Source: a virus. Taken from it: a stretch of DNA of 35,051 nucleotides. Of the stretch, positions 11,594 through 32,454 are shown in pieces; within the stretch, counting starts at the first letter, position 1; every line of letters starts with the position of its first letter. Position numbers and translations under genes: made by a program. The DNA is taken from IMG/VR virus record IMGVR_UViG_3300019360_000024, positions 1 to 35,051 of that record. The stretch is one strand, 5' to 3'. The notes under the pieces were generated by a model, which ran no database searches, had not been told where the DNA came from, and saw only the letters and a list, made by a program, of their open reading frames with translations.

Positions 11594-12082
11594 ATGAAGC
11601 CTCTGGCCCTAATGTTTTTGCTGCTGCTGCCTTCCTCCGTTTTTGCCGATTCGCTTCGCGGCGTTGCGGCCCGCGTAATTGACGGCGATACGTTCGACCT
11701 GCGCGACGCTTCCGGACAGACTCACCGTGTCCGGCTTTCCGGAATTGACGCGCCCGAGACGAGCCAACCTTTCGGCAAAGCCTGCCGGCAAAGTCTCGGC
11801 GATCAAATTTCAGGGAAAGAGATCGTGGTCATCTGGCTGAAGGCGGATCGTTACAAGCGCAAGCTCGGAACGGCTCTGCTTGGCTCTGAGAATGTGAATC
11901 TCGCGCAGATTCGAAGTGGCTGCGCCTGGTATTTCAAGCGCTACGCCGCCGAGACGCCGGAGATCGAAGCGTCGCAGTATGAAGCGGCGGAAGCCGAAGC
12001 GCGTAAAGGGAAGGTGGGATTATGGCAGGCGGAGAAGCCGATTCCGCCTTGGGATTGGAGGAAGAAGAAGAGAGTAATATGA
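11594..12082 (+). CDS. Secreted thermonuclease (SNase family)
   Basis: A 162-residue staphylococcal-nuclease-type enzyme that cuts DNA and RNA with Ca2+. Residues 1-18 are a signal peptide (KPLALMFLLLLPSSVFA) with a likely cut before Asp19, so the enzyme acts outside the cytoplasm. The active-site set is complete: DGDT at 30-33, Arg47, Asp52, Glu55 (RVRLSGIDAPE) and Arg89 (DRYKR). The ATG at 11594 is chosen because it places the signal peptide first; an upstream TTG would add 10 residues. The stop overlaps the next start. Possible roles are breakdown of host or biofilm DNA, or a cargo trait. Confidence 0.88.
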   Translation: MKPLALMFLLLLPSSVFADSLRGVAARVIDGDTFDLRDASGQTHRVRLSGIDAPETSQPFGKACRQSLGDQISGKEIVVIWLKADRYKRKLGTALLGSENVNLAQIRSGCAWYFKRYAAETPEIEASQYEAAEAEARKGKVGLWQAEKPIPPWDWRKKKRVI

Positions 12083-12951
12083 GGCACATCATTCCAATTT
12101 CTGGCAAGGACTCGCTTTGCGCAGCCCTGATTCAAACGACGCGCCAGCCGGATACCAACTACGAGTTTTTATTTTGCGACGTAGGCGCAGAGCTGCCAGA
12201 AACATACGCGTGGCTAGAGCAGGTTGAACGCCAGACCGGATGGACAATTCAGCGGATCGGCAAAAGCCTCGCTGACGTGATTGCGCAGCGGGACATACTG
12301 CCCTCTGCAAATAGGCGCTTTTGCACTAAAGAATGCAAGATTCGTCCGATGGAGAAGTTTTATGGGAAAGGGCAGACCTACGTCTACTACGGACTGCGCG
12401 CCGATGAGAATCGCGTTGGCGTGCGCCCTTCGGATACCAGCACACCGATTTATCCGCTCATTGAGGCAGGCATTGATTTGCGCGGCGTTTGGCTAATCCT
12501 AAACCGACAAAATCTATTGCCGCCCTCATTCTTCTGGCCTTCTCTCTATTATCGGGTCTGTGAATTTTTGGGAGATTCATGGACGTTGATAAATGAACTA
12601 CCAGAATGGGAACAGCGAATGCTTTTCGCTGGGCGCACGCGCTCAAACTGCCACTTTTGTTTTTATCAGCGTCAGTACGAATTTACTTGGTTGGCGGAGG
12701 CGCATCCCGACCTTTTCGAGAACGCCGCCTGGATGGAACGTCGAACAGGGCGATTGCAGCAATCGCCCTTCACATGGTTATCGGCGGGACATGTTGACAA
12801 CCTTGTAAGGAATCGGCGGCAACAAATCCTAGACCGACGCGCCCGCGATGTGGTGGAAATGATTCGGCGTCGGCTCAATAAGGGACTATTCAATGATTCT
12901 TTTGATACAGAAATCGCGCTTACAAGTTGCGGGCTGTTATGCGGAAAGTAG
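12079..12951 (+). CDS. PAPS-reductase-like PP-loop protein
   Basis: A 290-residue member of the phosphoadenosine-phosphosulfate reductase / PP-loop ATPase superfamily. The pyrophosphate-binding motif is SGKDS (residues 8-12). Four Cys in two pairs (FCTKEC at 81-86; CHFC at 191-194) could hold an iron-sulfur cluster or zinc. Relatives reduce PAPS or activate sulfur, as DndC does in DNA phosphorothioation, and are frequent in phages, where the substrate is usually unknown. The start overlaps the thermonuclease stop (ATGA). Codon use is more AT-rich than in the structural genes, which hints at separate acquisition. A strong terminator follows. Confidence 0.82.
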   Translation: MRHIIPISGKDSLCAALIQTTRQPDTNYEFLFCDVGAELPETYAWLEQVERQTGWTIQRIGKSLADVIAQRDILPSANRRFCTKECKIRPMEKFYGKGQTYVYYGLRADENRVGVRPSDTSTPIYPLIEAGIDLRGVWLILNRQNLLPPSFFWPSLYYRVCEFLGDSWTLINELPEWEQRMLFAGRTRSNCHFCFYQRQYEFTWLAEAHPDLFENAAWMERRTGRLQQSPFTWLSAGHVDNLVRNRRQQILDRRARDVVEMIRRRLNKGLFNDSFDTEIALTSCGLLCGK

Positions 12952-18479: not shown

Positions 18480-19424
18480 TTAAGTGGCGCTTTCCGCGCC
18501 GTGATTATTGAAATATTCGATGACCCGCCGCTCCCATTCGAATTGCGGGCCCCCTCTCGCCTCAATCCCCTCCCGCTCGTTTTTTAGTTGGGAGATATCG
18601 CCGCGCTCGATCAATTCCGAGATGTAATTCTCGAAATTGAAATCTGAAAAATCGTCGTTCGGGCCGACGAGTGGGGCCGCGGCGTGCGCCGCGTGGCGCT
18701 CTCGCTCTTCGATCCAGCGCGCAATGTCGGTGTCTTCCTCGCCTGTGCGGAAGAGTGTCCGGGCGAGACCACCCGGATTGCTGGCTCTAGGCTTTGTTTC
18801 CTCGCAGTAGGTTTTGATCAGTTCGAAAGTGAACTGCGAAGCATGCGTCTCATCAGAGTAAAGCTCCGAAGCGTTGGCAGCAGCGGCAAGCGCGCCTCTG
18901 CTCTGCTTCTGCTCTGTCTCTGTTTCTGCTCTGCTCTGCTCTGCTCTATGTGACGCGTCACGCGTGACGTTACGGGCGTTCGGCTCGGGCGTCACGGACG
19001 CGTCACGCCGTGACGATTTTTTGTTGCCGTTTTGCGTCACGGTTGCGTCACGCGTGACGGTCGCGTGACGGTCGCGTGACGCGTCACGGTCAGTGCGTTT
19101 GTTTGCTCGGTAGCGCCGCGCGCGTTCGGCGGCTGTCCGGTCCTCGGCGCCAAGCTGGTATTGCCGGCCTTCCCAGTTGTGTGGAGTGAAACGGCCGTCC
19201 TTCGTTTCGATCAGGCCGACGTCTTGAAGCGTTGAAACGAGTTCGCGCGCCTCGTCGCTCGTTACCCGCAGGCGCCAGGCGATATCCGCCAGCTCCGGCA
19301 GCGCGCCGTCATTCTCTTTGGCCAGGCAAAGCAAATTTATCCAGCCCTTGAAGTGTTCAGGCGCGAGGCGCTGCACCTTCGGATCATTCAAGATGCTCGT
19401 GTACAGCCTAAGCCAATAGTTCAC
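18480..19424 (-). CDS. Phage replication initiator with winged-helix N-terminus
   Basis: A 314-residue protein. Residues 1-100 are the helix-turn-helix domain of phage replisome-organiser proteins (WLRLYTSILNDPKVQRLAPE, FKGWINLLCLAKENDGALPE, FTPHNWEGRQYQ). Residues about 110-170 are a disordered, Thr/Asp/Arg-rich linker with repeated VTRDA, encoded by the GTGACG repeat array. The C-terminal part (FTFELIKTYCEETKP onward) is probably the helicase-loading region. The start is GTG. It is analogous to lambda O, whose gene also carries the origin. It binds origin DNA and brings in host replication proteins; that role comes from the family. Confidence 0.75.
   Translation of the reverse strand: MNYWLRLYTSILNDPKVQRLAPEHFKGWINLLCLAKENDGALPELADIAWRLRVTSDEARELVSTLQDVGLIETKDGRFTPHNWEGRQYQLGAEDRTAAERARRYRANKRTDRDASRDRHATVTRDATVTQNGNKKSSRRDASVTPEPNARNVTRDASHRAEQSRAETETEQKQSRGALAAAANASELYSDETHASQFTFELIKTYCEETKPRASNPGGLARTLFRTGEEDTDIARWIEERERHAAHAAAPLVGPNDDFSDFNFENYISELIERGDISQLKNEREGIEARGGPQFEWERRVIEYFNNHGAESAT
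18950..19087. repeat. Repeat array inside the initiator gene; candidate replication origin
   Basis: Twelve GTGACG or CGTCAC hexamers fall within 138 bases (starts 18950, 18956, 18964, 18990, 19001, 19010, 19035, 19046, 19054, 19065, 19076, 19082). Several pair into palindromes such as GTGACGCGTCAC, and three are exactly 11 bases apart. A T-rich stretch (19016-19033) lies inside. This matches the iteron-in-initiator design of lambdoid origins. Confidence 0.75.
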
Positions 19425-19650: not shown

Positions 19651-19836
19651 TTATTGAGTTGTGGATTGCGCCTGCGCTCGCTCGGCTCGGCGCTGCGCCT
19701 CGATGATCTCCTTGATCACCGCAGGCACGCTCGGCGCATCTGTGGTGATCTGACCGCGCAACCACTCCGCCGTGCCGGGTTTCACCCGCACGTGGAAGTT
19801 GGTCGCCTTCGCCTCTTTCGCAGTTTTCTTTTTCAT
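19651..19836 (-). CDS. Ribbon-helix-helix DNA-binding protein
   Basis: A 61-residue protein with the Arc/CopG plan: a basic start (MKKKTAKEAK), one strand (ATNFHVRVKPG), then two helices (TAEWLRGQITTDA and SVPAVIKEIIEAQRRAERA). Such proteins bind operator DNA as dimers through the strand, often side by side on direct repeats. GGAGGGAATA precedes the ATG. Its own promoter, 20-60 bases upstream, carries three GGTAC boxes at 11-bp spacing, so it is probably self-regulating. It is the best candidate for the phage repressor. The fold is read from sequence pattern. Confidence 0.7.
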   Translation of the reverse strand: MKKKTAKEAKATNFHVRVKPGTAEWLRGQITTDAPSVPAVIKEIIEAQRRAERAQAQSTTQ

Positions 19837-19856
19837 TATTCCCTCCCTCCTATTTG

Positions 19857-19895
19857 GGTACCGGAGAGGTACCACAACGGTACTCGGTCTGTCAA
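19857..19895 (-). promoter_or_regulatory. Leftward promoter PL1 with triple 11-bp operator
   Basis: Minus-strand TTGACA (19895-19890) is a consensus -35; a -10 such as TACCTC follows after 18 bases. GGTAC boxes begin at 19857, 19868 and 19879, exactly one helical turn apart, covering spacer and -10. It controls the RHH gene and probably the replication initiator, and lies in the divergent gap before the second RHH gene. Confidence 0.75.
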
Positions 19896-19951
19896 CACTT
19901 TTTCTTTTCCGGCGCTCTTCGCTAGAATCCGCGCAAGGAAACCAACAATCT

Positions 19952-20209
19952 ATGCCGGAAGATATCTATCAATTTAAGTTTAGAATCTCGCGCCCGCTCT
20001 TTGATCGTCTGACGAGGCTTGCGGCCCGGGCCGGATTTTCAAGCGCCAACGAGTTTGCGGCTGCGGCTCTCGACCAATACGGCGAACTGCTGGCGGAACT
20101 GATCATCGAGCAGCGTGATGCGCTCTCCCTTATCAGGGAGCGCCAGCGCGAGCAGCTTTTAAAGAAAACGCCCGCGGCGCCGGAAACAGGGCCGCGGAAA
20201 CGCAAGTAG
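19952..20209 (+). CDS. Second ribbon-helix-helix protein, divergent
   Basis: An 85-residue protein, also RHH-like: strand YQFKFRISRP, helix LFDRLTRLAARAG, helix SANEFAAAALDQYGELLAEL, then a charged coiled coil and basic tail. It is read away from the first RHH gene across the shared operator, as cI and cro are, and may be its antagonist. TAGAAT (about 28 bases before the ATG) is a possible -10; AAGGAA gives a ribosome site. The ATG at 19952 is chosen over longer forms that would cross the operator. Confidence 0.68.
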   Translation: MPEDIYQFKFRISRPLFDRLTRLAARAGFSSANEFAAAALDQYGELLAELIIEQRDALSLIRERQREQLLKKTPAAPETGPRKRK

Positions 20210-20440: not shown

Positions 20441-20710
20441 ACGTGAAGTCTCCATCCGGTTGGCGGTTGATGATTGCGCCAGGGGCCTTTAGCGCCTCGT
20501 GTGGGGATAAGCGATGGGGAAACGGCTATTTGTTATGACTCCGCGCTCGACGCGGCGGTTGCAGACGAGTGGTAAGTTTGTGGTAAAACAAAACTTCACA
20601 AGCTGCAATCAACTGTCAGAAGCTGCACGGCTCCGAGTTGTTGACTGTTGTTTTTGTGGTAGGCGTTTCAATCAGTTGCAGCGAAATTCAGCGAAACGGT
20701 AAGGCGGCGC

Positions 20711-20740
20711 GAGGGAGTTCGAATCCCTCACTCTCCGCTC
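20711..20740 (+). other. Candidate attP core: 3' end of a tRNA-like sequence
   Basis: GTTCGAATCCCTCACTCTCC resembles the T-loop, T-stem and acceptor 3' side of a Ser-type tRNA. No matching 5' acceptor, D-arm or anticodon arm lies upstream, and the T-arm would have a 9-base loop, so this is not a working tRNA. It lies 36 bases beyond the 3' end of the integrase gene, the usual place for a core that restores the host tRNA on integration. Confidence 0.65.
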
Positions 20741-20775: not shown

Positions 20776-21870
20776 TTACCCTGCTTTCGATTTCAACTCA
20801 ACTACATTCTTTGTGGCAATTTTGTGGTAATCCTCTCGGAAAGTAGTCAATTTCCTGATCGCCGCGTGAGTGTTTGACTCGACTAGATGCATATAGCGCA
20901 TCGTGGTTGAGATGTCGGCGTGGCCGGCGAGCTCCTTAATTGTCCGTACGTCTACCCCAGCTGCGGCAAGCCTGGTGCAAAACGTGTGACGCAGGACGTG
21001 GAGTGTTACGCCTTCGACCTCGGCGAGTTTCGACGCCTTCGCGAGCGACTTATCCGCGCGTGTGAATTTACCGCCTGAGTGCGGCGAGGTGAAGATCCAA
21101 TCGCTTCGCGATTCCGCGATCAGCCCGGCTAGAATCTGGCGCGCCTCTCCGGCCGGATCGAGCGGAACTGTCCGAGCTTTCCCGCCTTTCCCGTCGAGGA
21201 CGTGAACCAGGTTAAGCGTCAGGTCGATGTCGGCCTTCCGGAGCGCAAAAAGCTCCGCGCGCCTCAGACCGGTCGCGCATCCGACCGCGATCAGGTCCGC
21301 CAGGTAAGGCCAGGCCTCGGCCGCTGCGCCTCGCAAGGCCGATTCCTCGGCGAGAGTCAGATAGCGAATTCGCGCGTTGTCTTCGCGGAGGGTCTCGATT
21401 CGCGGGCGGCCGTCGCGCCTCGAAAGGCCGAGCGATTCCGCCCGGGTGAAGACTGACGCGAGGATTTGCAGGTAGCGATTGACCGATGCTGTAGATTGTG
21501 CGGCGCCGCGCTTCGTCTTTCGCTTCAACTGCTCGCGCTTGAACCTCTCGATGGCGATCTGCGAGACCTCGGCCAGATCGAGCGCGCCGAATACTTCGAT
21601 CAGATCGGCGCATCGCCATCTGTAGGACTGACAGGTCCCGCGCGCGAGGTTCGTTTCAACCCACGGCAGAAATACCCCATTCACGAAGGCGCGAAAGTTC
21701 GTATCCGCGGAGGCTTCGCCATCTCTGCCTTCGCGAATGTGGGTCTTTCGCGCTTCCTCGGCCGCGCGAGCCTGCGATTTGGTTTCGATTTCAGGCAGAG
21801 CTTTAAAGTACCTCCGCCCACTGAGCATAAAGCGGTATCGCCAGATACCGCTGACTTTATAAACCGACAT
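20776..21870 (-). CDS. int: Tyrosine site-specific integrase
   Basis: A 364-residue recombinase that inserts and, with a helper, excises the element. The N-terminal arm-binding region is followed by the core-binding domain (about 57-160) and the catalytic domain with Arg203 (TGLRRAEL), Lys231 (GKGGKARTV), His291 and Arg294 (HVLRH), His317 (AGHADI) and Tyr326 (MRYMHL): all key residues are present. The ATG at 21870 follows GGAGGAAACCAACA; longer forms cross a hairpin. attP-like DNA lies just past the stop. Confidence 0.92.
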   Translation of the reverse strand: MSVYKVSGIWRYRFMLSGRRYFKALPEIETKSQARAAEEARKTHIREGRDGEASADTNFRAFVNGVFLPWVETNLARGTCQSYRWRCADLIEVFGALDLAEVSQIAIERFKREQLKRKTKRGAAQSTASVNRYLQILASVFTRAESLGLSRRDGRPRIETLREDNARIRYLTLAEESALRGAAAEAWPYLADLIAVGCATGLRRAELFALRKADIDLTLNLVHVLDGKGGKARTVPLDPAGEARQILAGLIAESRSDWIFTSPHSGGKFTRADKSLAKASKLAEVEGVTLHVLRHTFCTRLAAAGVDVRTIKELAGHADISTTMRYMHLVESNTHAAIRKLTTFREDYHKIATKNVVELKSKAG

Positions 21871-21897
21871 TGTTGGTTTCCTCCGATCGCTTCGGAG

Positions 21898-21935
21898 CCG
21901 TGCGCGCGGATTGTGGCTGATGTCCGCGCGCACGG
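21898..21935 (-). promoter_or_regulatory. Hairpin in the integrase leader
   Basis: CCGTGCGCGCGGA (21898-21910) and TCCGCGCGCACGG (21923-21935) form a perfect 13-bp stem with a 12-base loop, 28 bases upstream of the integrase ATG. TTGACC at the outer edge may be a -35. It may limit integrase expression by attenuation or as a protein site. Confidence 0.55.
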
Positions 21936-21951
21936 TCAACTCAAGGCGCCC

Positions 21952-26786: not shown

Positions 26787-27536
26787 CTATTTAGATGTGG
26801 TTTGCGCCCGGGCCGAAAGCTCGGCCTTGAGCGCCTGAATCAATTCTGCCTGCTGCCCGCCGTCGAGCGTTTCAATCGCGCCGATTGATTCCAGCGCGAT
26901 ATTGAAGCGGGCGAAGATTTCATTTATGAGCTTTGCGTCGTCCCACTTCAGCGCGCTGGCGAGAGCGCGGATTTGGCCGGCCTTTCCTGCTGTTGGCTGG
27001 CTGGGCTGCGCTGGCCCTTGCCGCTGCTGCCTCTCTCCTGATTGCTGATGTTCTCTGCCGCCGTGAACCGGCGAATCCGAGTCGTACAGGTCGAGCGCGA
27101 TGCCGAGCAGGCTCGCGCATTTTTTGAGCGCATCGCTTGCGGCGCCTTTGTAGCAGTCGCCGATTGATACCGGCGCTGAGCCATCCTTCAGCATCTCAAT
27201 TGGCTGGCAGCCGAATTGGGTTTTCGTCACGGACTGACCGCCAAGCCGCACGATCAGCGTCCCGCGCACTTTCACTTCAAATGGCCGCGCGCCATTCAAT
27301 AGCAATTCCTCGTTGTCGGCCACGAAATCCCAGTCCCAGCCGAACGCCTGATTGAGCGCGCGAATCACATAGGCCGTATCAGTGTACGGCAGTCGCGCGC
27401 CTCCGCGCCCGGGCCGCCAGCGAATCTCTTCCTTTGGCGTCGTCTGCTCCGCGATCAGGCGTAGAGCGTCGAGCTGGCGGTTTTGCGGCGCCGTAGGTAG
27501 CGCCGCTTCGATTTTTTCGAGCGCTTTGCTTGCCAT
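26787..27536 (-). CDS. Rad52-like single-strand annealing protein
   Basis: A 249-residue phage recombinase of the Rad52/Rad22 group. Residues about 38-155 form the conserved DNA-binding core (RWRPGRGGARLPYTDTAYVI, ALNQAFGWDWDF, then IGDCYKGAASDALKKCASLL and GIALDLYD). A Gln-rich linker and a helical C-terminal region follow. It anneals complementary single strands during phage recombination and replication. The ATG at 27536 follows GGAGGGAGAT. No partner exonuclease or single-strand binding protein is recognised in the window. Confidence 0.82.
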   Translation of the reverse strand: MASKALEKIEAALPTAPQNRQLDALRLIAEQTTPKEEIRWRPGRGGARLPYTDTAYVIRALNQAFGWDWDFVADNEELLLNGARPFEVKVRGTLIVRLGGQSVTKTQFGCQPIEMLKDGSAPVSIGDCYKGAASDALKKCASLLGIALDLYDSDSPVHGGREHQQSGERQQRQGPAQPSQPTAGKAGQIRALASALKWDDAKLINEIFARFNIALESIGAIETLDGGQQAELIQALKAELSARAQTTSK

Positions 27537-27546
27537 ATCTCCCTCC

Positions 27547-27738
27547 CTATTTATTGAGCGCTTCGCCCGCGATCTCTCGCGCAGCGGCGAGAGATTCACA
27601 GGATGAAGCGCGGATTTCATCGAGCGCGATTTGTAAATCACAAACAAGTTCAATCAAGAATTTCAGGTCGTAGCTGCGCGGGCCTTCGCATTCCGCGTAG
27701 CTATCAACTAATTGTTCAAATTGCTCCCTCCTGCTCAT
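27547..27738 (-). CDS. Hypothetical small helical protein
   Basis: A 63-residue acidic helical protein (LIELVCDLQIALDEIRASSC) directly upstream of the annealing gene. AGAGGCAAGC precedes the ATG. Function unknown. Confidence 0.6.
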   Translation of the reverse strand: MSRREQFEQLVDSYAECEGPRSYDLKFLIELVCDLQIALDEIRASSCESLAAAREIAGEALNK

Positions 27739-28925: not shown

Positions 28926-29423
28926 TTACGCCCGCGCCTCGCGCGACGCGAACCACAAGCGACCCGCCAGCGCCCGCACCGCTGAACGCAGATAGCCAAT
29001 CAGCGCCTCCTGACTCAGGGATTGCGATTCAGGCGCGGCGGGGATCGGCGCCAGTTCCCGCGGATCGAGCAGTGGCGCGGGAACCTGGCGAGCCACTGCG
29101 CGCTCGGGCGCGGGTTCGAGCGCCGCCGCAAACGGCAGCATTGCCGGAGAGGCGAGCAGCCCGATTGAGAGAGCCGCGCGCGCTACGTGGTAGCAGGGCT
29201 GCGGCCAGCCGCCGCGCCCGTAGCCCACGCCCGCCCTGCAGTCGCACGATGTCCAGCAAGTTCCGCCCTCAAACCAGATATCGATAATGGCCGCGCCGCC
29301 GCCCGCGCGCGCAACGCGAAAAGTAAAATTGATTTCGTCGGTGTGAAGGAGCTCGCAGGCCGGCGCGATGGATTGCGCCTTTTCGATTGCCCGCCGAAAG
29401 GTGTCGCTGTTGAGTTTGATCAT
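28926..29423 (-). CDS. SWIM-type zinc-finger protein
   Basis: A 165-residue protein, first gene of the PL2 operon. After an N-terminal domain (IKLNSDTFRRAIEKAQSIAP) comes CDCRAGVGYGRGGWPQPCYH, matching the CxC..CxH zinc pattern of SWIM domains, which bind DNA or protein. The C-terminal half is Ala/Pro-rich and low in complexity. The ATG at 29423 follows CGGAGGCAAT; longer in-frame forms cross the operator and are rejected. Confidence 0.65.
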   Translation of the reverse strand: MIKLNSDTFRRAIEKAQSIAPACELLHTDEINFTFRVARAGGGAAIIDIWFEGGTCWTSCDCRAGVGYGRGGWPQPCYHVARAALSIGLLASPAMLPFAAALEPAPERAVARQVPAPLLDPRELAPIPAAPESQSLSQEALIGYLRSAVRALAGRLWFASREARA

Positions 29424-29455: not shown

Positions 29456-29493
29456 GGTACCGAGATGGTACCATAGCGGTACCCCCAATGCAA
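29456..29493 (-). promoter_or_regulatory. Leftward promoter PL2 with triple 11-bp operator
   Basis: Minus-strand TTGCAT (29493-29488), 17 bases, TACCAT (29470-29465). GGTACC boxes begin at 29456, 29467 and 29478 with the same 11-bp step and register as at PL1. The predicted start is about 29458, some 35 bases before the first gene of the large early operon. Confidence 0.75.
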
Positions 29494-29523: not shown

Positions 29524-29838
29524 TCACTGAATTTCAGTTCCGCCCCGAGTGGCTGCGCGCAGCCAGCGCGCGAAGAGCCCCGAGCCGCAGGCGCGCGAGA
29601 GCCAGAGCCGGCGAGAGAGCCAGAGCGGCAGCCAGAGCCAGCGCTCCCGCACGCAAGCAATACCGGGGGCTAGGCGCGCCCCCGGCCCGCGGCGCAAGAT
29701 GAGCGCCACGCGGCCACGATGCGCTCCCTGCGCGCGAGGGCCCGCAAACACCAGCCGCACGGCGAGCGAGCGGCGCCAGCTGGGCGCGAAGGCCAGCAAA
29801 AAGAGAAGGATGGAAAAGAGGAGGAGAGCGGAAAACAT
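29524..29838 (-). CDS. Possible hydrophobic small protein in the T-poor tract
   Basis: A 104-codon frame beginning with a clear hydrophobic segment (MFSALLLFSILLFLLAFAPS), then Arg/Leu/Trp-rich sequence. GAGGTG lies 6 bases before the ATG, and it starts 10 bases after another open frame. However, A-free DNA can only encode such residues and cannot contain stops, so this is weak evidence of a gene. Confidence 0.28.
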   Translation of the reverse strand: MFSALLLFSILLFLLAFAPSWRRSLAVRLVFAGPRAQGAHRGRVALILRRGPGARLAPGIACVRERWLWLPLWLSRRLWLSRACGSGLFARWLRAATRGGTEIQ

Positions 29839-30160
29839 GAGGCGCACCTCAGCGCGCGAGCCACGGCCCGCCAGACCAGCGGCGCGGCGAACGACGCCAC
29901 ACACCGAGCGCCGCGCGACGCGCAGCCAGAGCCGCAGGAGAGAGAGCCAGCGGCCCAAGAGCCGCGCCAACCCACGGACGCGACCGATCCGGCGCCGGCC
30001 CCACGCCGCAGCAAAACCCGCCCACGGGCACGAAAGCGCCGCACGACCCGCAGACGCAGCCAGCGGGCGGAACAGACGGAAAGAGCGGAAGAGAAGAAGC
30101 CATGAAACACCCCCAAAAAAAAACGGCCAACGACAGCGCCCGCGCGAGCGCAGAACCAAC
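29550..30160 (+). other. T-depleted tract 1
   Basis: About 16 T in 600 bases between 29581 and 30180, with T-free runs at 29850-29987 (138 bases) and 29989-30102 (114 bases). All six frames are therefore open. A minus-strand frame (29849-30103, 84 codons) starts after GGGGGTGTTTC. It lies just downstream of promoter PL3, so its leftward RNA would be almost free of A. Confidence 0.85.
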
Positions 30161-30162
30161 GT

Positions 30163-30200
30163 GGAACCGGAATGGTACCAAACCGGAACCAGAAAAGCAA
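30163..30200 (-). promoter_or_regulatory. Leftward promoter PL3 with triple 11-bp operator
   Basis: Minus-strand TTGCTT (30200-30195), 17 bases, TACCAT (30177-30172). Boxes GGAACC, GGTACC and GGAACC begin at 30163, 30174 and 30185, again at 11-bp steps. Layout matches PL2 almost exactly. It points into T-depleted tract 1. Confidence 0.65.
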
Positions 30201-31740: not shown

Positions 31741-32110
31741 CGTGAATTGGCAAGAGGCGGCGCCCGTCACCGCCCGCACCGAACCCGGCGGAGAACCCAC
31801 CGGGGAAGCGGAACGAACAGCCACACCCGACGCGAACCGAAACCCGAGCGACGCGAAACCCGCCACGCCAGCACGAGCGACGAGCGACGACGGGAGACAA
31901 CGCACACGCACGGAACCAACGCGCGAACGAACGACACGGCGAAGAACAGGAACCACGCGACAATGAGGAGAACGACGAGATGGAACATGAGACACCCCCG
32001 GGGAAAAGCGGACACAATGGAAAACACGCGGACAGGACCCAGCGAGAGGGACGCCCGCGCACAGCCCCAATGACCCCCGGGCCGGCAATGGCGCGAGTGA
32101 GCCCCACCCG
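31741..32110 (+). other. T-depleted tract 2
   Basis: About 11 T in 360 bases, and none at all from 31768 to 31963 (196 bases). Polarity is the same as in tract 1. Its right part carries the same leftward leader, GGGGGTGTYTCATG, read on the minus strand. Confidence 0.9.
31767..31988 (-). CDS. Possible small membrane protein in T-poor tract 2
   Basis: A 73-codon frame with GGGGGTG 4 bases before the ATG and a strong hydrophobic start (MFHLVVLLIVAWFLFFAVSF), then an Arg-rich tail. The plan (one membrane helix, basic tail) would suit a toxin-like or holin-like peptide. The caution on A-free DNA applies, so it is only a candidate. Confidence 0.33.
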   Translation of the reverse strand: MFHLVVLLIVAWFLFFAVSFVRALVPCVCVVSRRRSSLVLAWRVSRRSGFGSRRVWLFVPLPRWVLRRVRCGR

Positions 32111-32454
32111 ACAGAAACCAAGCGGCGTTATGGGAAGACCACGCATAGAGATGCTGCGGGCTGCGGGAAGGGGGGGGTGTGGGGGGCAGGGCGCCCCCCA
32201 CATGAGAGAAGCCCGCTTGCGCTCCGATACCCGCGTCCCGCCTCCGCCGAACCGCGGGGCTTTTAGCCCGTACCATTGCCGGCCCGGGGGACAATGGGGC
32301 GAGCACGGACGGCCCGGAACTGACGATGGCGAAGCTTGCGGGCGCCGCGCCCGAGAGGGGTGGTGAATGCGCAACAGCGCGGGCGTAAGGCCGCGCGGTG
32401 AGGGAGAAAGCCCAAACCCGGGGGCCAGTCCTTAATTGATTGAAGGATGCGCGC

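Follow-up and report, generated by a model that had tools for sequence, protein, structure and literature searches.

A candidate immunity switch built on a ribbon-helix-helix-like protein pair and three-box operators in a temperate tailed phage

The immunity switches of tailed phages are, to our knowledge, generally taken to be based on helix-turn-helix (HTH) repressors. In lambda, cI acts on three-site operators at P_R and P_L, and in P22, where primary immunity is HTH-based, the small ribbon-helix-helix (RHH) repressors Arc and Mnt operate in immI. RHH dimers also bind tandem short palindromes in the cases of MetJ and CopG. In the archaeal Sulfolobus virus SSV1 the RHH repressor F55 maintains lysogeny through tandem repeats at the early promoters and at its own promoter, and has been described as reminiscent of lambda cI (PMC5569661). 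The RHH repressors of plasmids have been contrasted with the HTH repressors of phages (PMC8708921). Among the titles and abstracts listed by searches of the open literature, which leaves most subscription papers outside, we found no tailed phage with a primary switch of RHH type. Here we describe a locus in which, judging from its sequence, a pair of small RHH-like proteins quite probably takes the seats of cI and Cro, binding next to each other at triplet operators to silence the early operons of a temperate phage.

The window, the whole stretch of DNA analysed here, is a 35,051-bp IMG/VR record that comes from an environmental sample and represents a temperate tailed phage, with the terminase, portal and major head protein genes on the + strand; a PAPS reductase-like gene (12022-12951; PHROG 424, E 1e-29) is also seen in this structural half. 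The initial annotation had placed two small divergent open reading frames on either side of a promoter, and these are indeed present, encoding RHH1, of 61 amino acids, on the - strand (19651-19836, ATG at 19836, ribosome binding site GGAGGGAGGGA), and RHH2, of 85 amino acids, on the + strand (19952-20209, ATG at 19952). RHH2 is convergent with a tyrosine integrase gene (20776-21939, - strand; PHROG 1, E 1.2e-61), and downstream of RHH1 lies the gene for a DnaD-like helicase loader or replication initiation protein (18480-19424, - strand; PHROG 10469, E 1.2e-9). By analogy RHH1, the first gene of this leftward replication operon, appears to occupy the seat of Cro, and RHH2, divergent from RHH1 and beside the integrase, appears to occupy that of cI. 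Two further features of the region were observed. Dense GTCACG/CGTGACG repeats are found inside the loader gene at 19000-19100, and fragments resembling tRNA 3' ends (GTTCGAATCCC and similar) were noticed by eye between the regulator and integrase region, at about 20700-20740 of the window and at about 1200-1240 of L138. These fragments are likely attachment site cores; ARAGORN called no whole tRNA in the window.

Between the divergent RHH1 and RHH2 reading frames lies the first of three arrays of palindromic boxes at 11-bp steps, the candidate operator O1 (19857-19884, - strand), with GGTACC, GGTACC and GGTACT at 19857, 19868 and 19879, exactly where the initial annotation had put its boxes. 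The same design had been claimed for two further sites. This holds for the candidate operator O2 (29456-29483, - strand), which has three perfect GGTACC boxes at 29456, 29467 and 29478, but in O3 (30152-30190, - strand) only the middle box contains GGTAC, the array reading GGAACC, GGTACC and GGAACC at 30163, 30174 and 30185 with a degenerate fourth box, AGAACC, at 30152. Tandem GGTACC palindromes at 11-bp steps occur in exactly three places in the window, and every pair of boxes that matches at 10/12 or better falls within O1, O2 and O3, in agreement with the earlier claim that the design is found nowhere else. Allowing up to three mismatches, the array pattern gave 16 matches in the window against 0.17 expected from shuffled sequences, and in 30 simulated sequences no combination of palindrome and period reached three such arrays, the maximum being two.

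All three arrays point leftward and share one promoter register, as had been proposed, with a TTGxxx on the - strand 10 bp ahead of the first box (11 bp in P1) and an extended -10 element, TG-G-TACC(AT/TC), formed by the middle box at each site. The predicted promoter P1 (19866-19895, - strand) consists of TTGACA at 19895-19890, N18 and TG-G-TACCTC at 19871-19866, and would serve RHH1 and the loader. P2 (29465-29493, - strand) is predicted from TTGCAT at 29493-29488, N17 and TG-G-TACCAT at 29470-29465, with the same position in the relatives G002 and G075, and P3 (30172-30200, - strand) from TTGCTT at 30200-30195, N17 and TG-G-TACCAT at 30177-30172; the counterpart of P3 in G002 reads TTGACA-N17-TAATAT. 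The -10 hexamers of P1, P2 and P3 are poor. We infer that these sites are promoters, as scanning with the sigma-70 consensus calls none of them. Readings of the arrays as an excisionase filament or as replication iterons were dropped because the arrays are spread over three promoters, as much as 10 kb from one another. GGTACC triplets do occur in unrelated DNA, some of them as simple tandem repeats, as would suit an origin by chance or base composition, or a role as iterons in place of operators; we regard such an explanation as barely credible given that the three sites stand in one promoter register, are exclusive within the window and have counterparts kept in relatives.

We also observed GGTACC arrays in other DNA. 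A scan for triplets returned 94 stretches from the genome collection and 33 from IMG/VR, and most arrays in public DNA have neither an RHH gene nearby nor the promoter register. Among viral contigs triplets at 11-bp and 10-bp steps were found in 33 and 23 stretches respectively, an excess of the 11-bp step being undemonstrated. An array that has an RHH-like gene no more than about 400 bp away is present in the genome of Salinispora mooreana DSM 45549, whose RHH-like gene also occurs in three viral records (L007, L012 and L024). The combination is found again in the high-GC viral contigs L028, L031 and L037, in L035, and in L257 at 10-bp steps, and the register TTG-N7-GGTACC-N5-GGTACC is repeated in L028, L031, L037 and L035. 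These cases are recurrences in unrelated elements, not a statistical enrichment. RHH-like genes with the strict strand motif Q-x-K/R-x-R/N were found only near arrays, a result that is partly circular as the motif was built from some of them. The initial annotation had suggested that such arrays might be sought beside RHH genes in related phages; the pairing with an RHH-like gene does recur, but in unrelated elements, and the relatives identified through the portal protein gave only single near-misses for pairs of GGTACC boxes. Dispersed GGTACC arrays at 11-bp steps were also seen in a Candidatus Odoribacter faecigallinarum metagenome-assembled genome and in Chitinophaga filiformis. These families, with many loci per genome and without the promoter register, are a different phenomenon from the candidate operators of the window.

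The RHH fold of the two proteins is suggested by weak but converging sequence matches. The best PDB matches of RHH2 were MazE6 (7wj0) and 1y9b, which we take to be RHH-fold proteins, with E values of 0.39 and 0.87, and a profile of two sequences, RHH2 and its G002 counterpart, had 1y9b as its sole PDB match (E 0.011). The G002 counterpart of RHH1 (L138 1837-2037) matched only Arc and NikR structures in the PDB (E 0.012-1.3) and also matched NikR models; RHH1 itself gave no informative match. The matches thus converge on Arc, NikR, MazE6 and 1y9b. Single-sequence AF2 models, of modest confidence, show an extended amino-terminus followed by two helices for RHH1 (pLDDT 69) and two helices with a helical strand region for RHH2 (pLDDT 83). 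Foldseek found nothing significant for either model, listing 1y9b weakly for RHH2 (E 4). The RHH models of Pfam and NCBIfam did not match RHH1 or RHH2, and neither protein matched a Cro/C1-type HTH, which among the relatives is found only in G001. Protein searches of the viral contigs with RHH1 and RHH2 returned no relatives, a search of the phage collection with RHH2 gave weak matches only, a generic RHH regular expression gave zero matches, and a search with RHH_1 (PF01402) over the array-bearing records was uninformative.

The only relative that keeps the RHH-like protein pair is G002 (IMGVR_UViG_3300031576_000229), whose portal protein is 62% identical to that of the window. Its layout is the same, with an integrase, an RHH2-like gene convergent with it, a divergent RHH1-like gene (RHH1') and an adjoining homologue of the loader, and G002 was the sole relative retrieved with the DnaD-like loader as query. 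A divergent regulator pair next to the integrase and early operons is therefore present in both phages. GGTACC arrays are absent from G002, whose three corresponding promoters have another palindromic box, ACAnnTGT-like and repeated every 10 bp, at the equivalent position: TTGACACACGTGTGCACAGGTGTTAATATGTGT at P3', TTGACGACACGTATTCACATATGTAATAATGTGC at P2' and the region around ACAGATGATGTTATATTACGACATCTGT at P1'. When the 31.8-kb genome was scanned for three ACAnnTGT boxes at 10 bp, P3' ranked first (17/18) and P2' second (14/18), and the three promoters took nine of the ten top positions, the tenth lying inside the loader gene. As the consensus was derived mainly from P3', one of the sites later ranked, the informative part is the ranking of P2' and P1'. 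The regulator proteins of the two phages share only 27-34% identity, with RHH1 aligning poorly to its counterpart, and a change of box specificity is therefore expected. The initial annotation had held that loss of the triplet in relatives that keep the genes would speak against its proposal; in G002 the GGTACC letters are gone and the three-box architecture at the promoters is kept.

These observations also bear on another possibility, that RHH1 and RHH2 form an auto-regulating pair, such as a plasmid copy-number or antitoxin module, with O2 and O3 derived by promoter duplication and forming no regulon. Auto-regulation through tandem sites is common in RHH antitoxins, yet we saw no toxin gene beside RHH1 or RHH2, where the neighbours are the replication loader and the integrase, and the same three promoters of G002 share another box. 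Furthermore, the spacers between boxes differ among O1, O2 and O3 while the boxes themselves are kept, which disfavours a recent duplication of the arrays, and we consider this account very improbable.

The gene under P2 encodes a CxC...CxH (SWIM-like) protein (28926-29423, - strand) and is a putative conserved target of the immunity regulon. Homologues were found in G002 (35% identity), in L231/L232 (59%) and in G001 (E 3e-9), the SWIM Pfam match of the L231 homologue being weak (E 0.086). Further along this leftward region is a gene for a Rad52-type annealing protein (26787-27653, - strand; PF04098, E 1.4e-11), and the recombination region would be an analogue of that under P_L. In a third relative, represented by the two records G074 and G075, the P2 gene is 59% identical and its promoter, TTGCATATTGATATTATTGTGATATTATACGAATATC, contains GATATT, GATATT and AATATC, one every 11 bp and in the same register. 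No other triplet in the 24-kb record reaches the score of this GATATC-like one with the same period, barring palindromes made of G and C alone; the G074 and G075 contigs exclude the switch region. The fourth relative, G001 (portal 42% identical, 38-kb genome), has a conventional divergent HTH_3 cI/Cro-like pair, the cI-like gene being next to one for an M78 (ImmA-like) peptidase. In G001 the promoters of the P2-gene homologue and of the Cro-like gene agree at 32/39 positions, and no other site in the genome exceeds 22; this places the P2 gene in the G001 immunity regulon, under HTH control. By inference, the P2 gene may likewise be under immunity control by RHH proteins in the window and in G002. 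One operator shared by the regulator promoter and a second early promoter is found in the window (O1, O2 and O3), in G002 and in G001. The wiring of G002 with another box, together with this operator sharing in G001, supports the original suggestion of an RHH regulon in the position of cI and Cro.

It is also possible that a host regulator, or another regulator of the phage, binds the boxes as operators of an early regulon, and that RHH1 and RHH2 are accessory proteins, for example excisionase-like. The small pair adjoins the integrase, the RHH fold is based on weak matches, and that either protein binds the boxes is a prediction, all of which would fit such a role. However, O1 lies between both genes, O2 and O3 are about 8-10 kb from the integrase, a poor fit to an excisionase, and the box letters differ from phage to phage, as expected if the pair that reads them is encoded by the phage. 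G001, moreover, runs the same wiring with its own HTH pair, and on balance we think the accessory role unlikely.

The third promoter, P3, precedes a predicted transcription unit that is almost free of adenine on its sense strand (29555-30161, - strand; 13 A in 607 nt). A similar unit precedes the P2-gene homologue in G002 (L139 6499-7581), with 1 A in 297 nt and 8 A in 761 nt, and the start codons of these units come after A-free leaders, GGGGGTG (cf. GGAGGTG). One-frame translations of the two units aligned with a score of 139 against a shuffle maximum of 116 (n=60), and both contain a hydrophobic stretch and an Arg/Trp-rich carboxy-terminus. A second A-poor stretch was observed at 31749-32127 (- sense), with a GGGGGTG-type leader and no box array upstream; it encodes MFHLVVLLIVAWFLFF..., a small, hydrophobic and Arg-rich product that resembles that of P3.

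In our preferred reading, with RHH1 and RHH2 as the repressor pair, the region would be one of immunity and early-promoter control. RHH dimers, most likely of RHH2 in the lysogen, would bind side by side, probably cooperatively, on the three boxes, which are one helical turn apart. The bound dimers would cover the extended -10 and the spacer of P1, P2 and P3 and so block RNA polymerase, comparable to the action of lambda cI at its own three-site operators. P1, controlling RHH1 and the helicase loader, would correspond to P_R; P2, controlling the SWIM-like protein and leading toward the recombination gene, would correspond to P_L; and P3 would control the adenine-free unit. We are inclined to think, a little more tentatively, that the phages described here represent a class of tailed-phage switch with an RHH pair in place of cI and Cro, in which the target promoters and the three-site geometry are constant while the letters of the boxes (GGTACC, ACAnnTGT or GATATC) vary with the proteins, immunity specificity being modular through changes in a few strand residues. 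If true, a switch of 60-85-amino acid proteins and triplet operators, with letters varying at fixed geometry, would make repressor-operator coevolution directly readable, and prophage immunity groups could be predicted by operator scanning where annotation gives only hypothetical proteins.

Judged by description, the nearest functional match is F55 of SSV1, an RHH protein that maintains lysogeny through tandem repeats over early promoters. It differs in being a single protein of an archaeal virus with TBP/TFB promoters and sites made of two tandem ATAGATAG-type repeats (PMC5569661), whereas the window, from a tailed phage, has a divergent pair and three palindromes of 6 bp at each promoter. 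Reg of p576 and the pLS20-clade plasmids is likewise an RHH repressor whose repeated operator is found at many of a mobile element's promoters, but it controls the establishment genes of a conjugative plasmid and its operators flank the promoters (PMC8708921). MetJ and CopG resemble the proposed proteins in placing RHH dimers on tandem short palindromes, although MetJ uses 8-bp boxes at 8-bp steps where the window and its relatives use steps of 11 (or 10) bp. Arc and Mnt are also small RHH repressors and sit side by side on operators of the tailed phage P22, but they belong to a secondary immunity region that controls the antirepressor, primary immunity in P22 being HTH-based. Lambda, also a temperate phage with an integrase, has a divergent pair in cI/Cro, three sites in each early operator (O_R1-3 and O_L1-3) and control of the replication and recombination operons. 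Its repressors have the HTH fold and 17-bp sites, in contrast to the window, where the proteins are small and RHH-like and the palindromes, of 6 bp, are placed every 11 bp.
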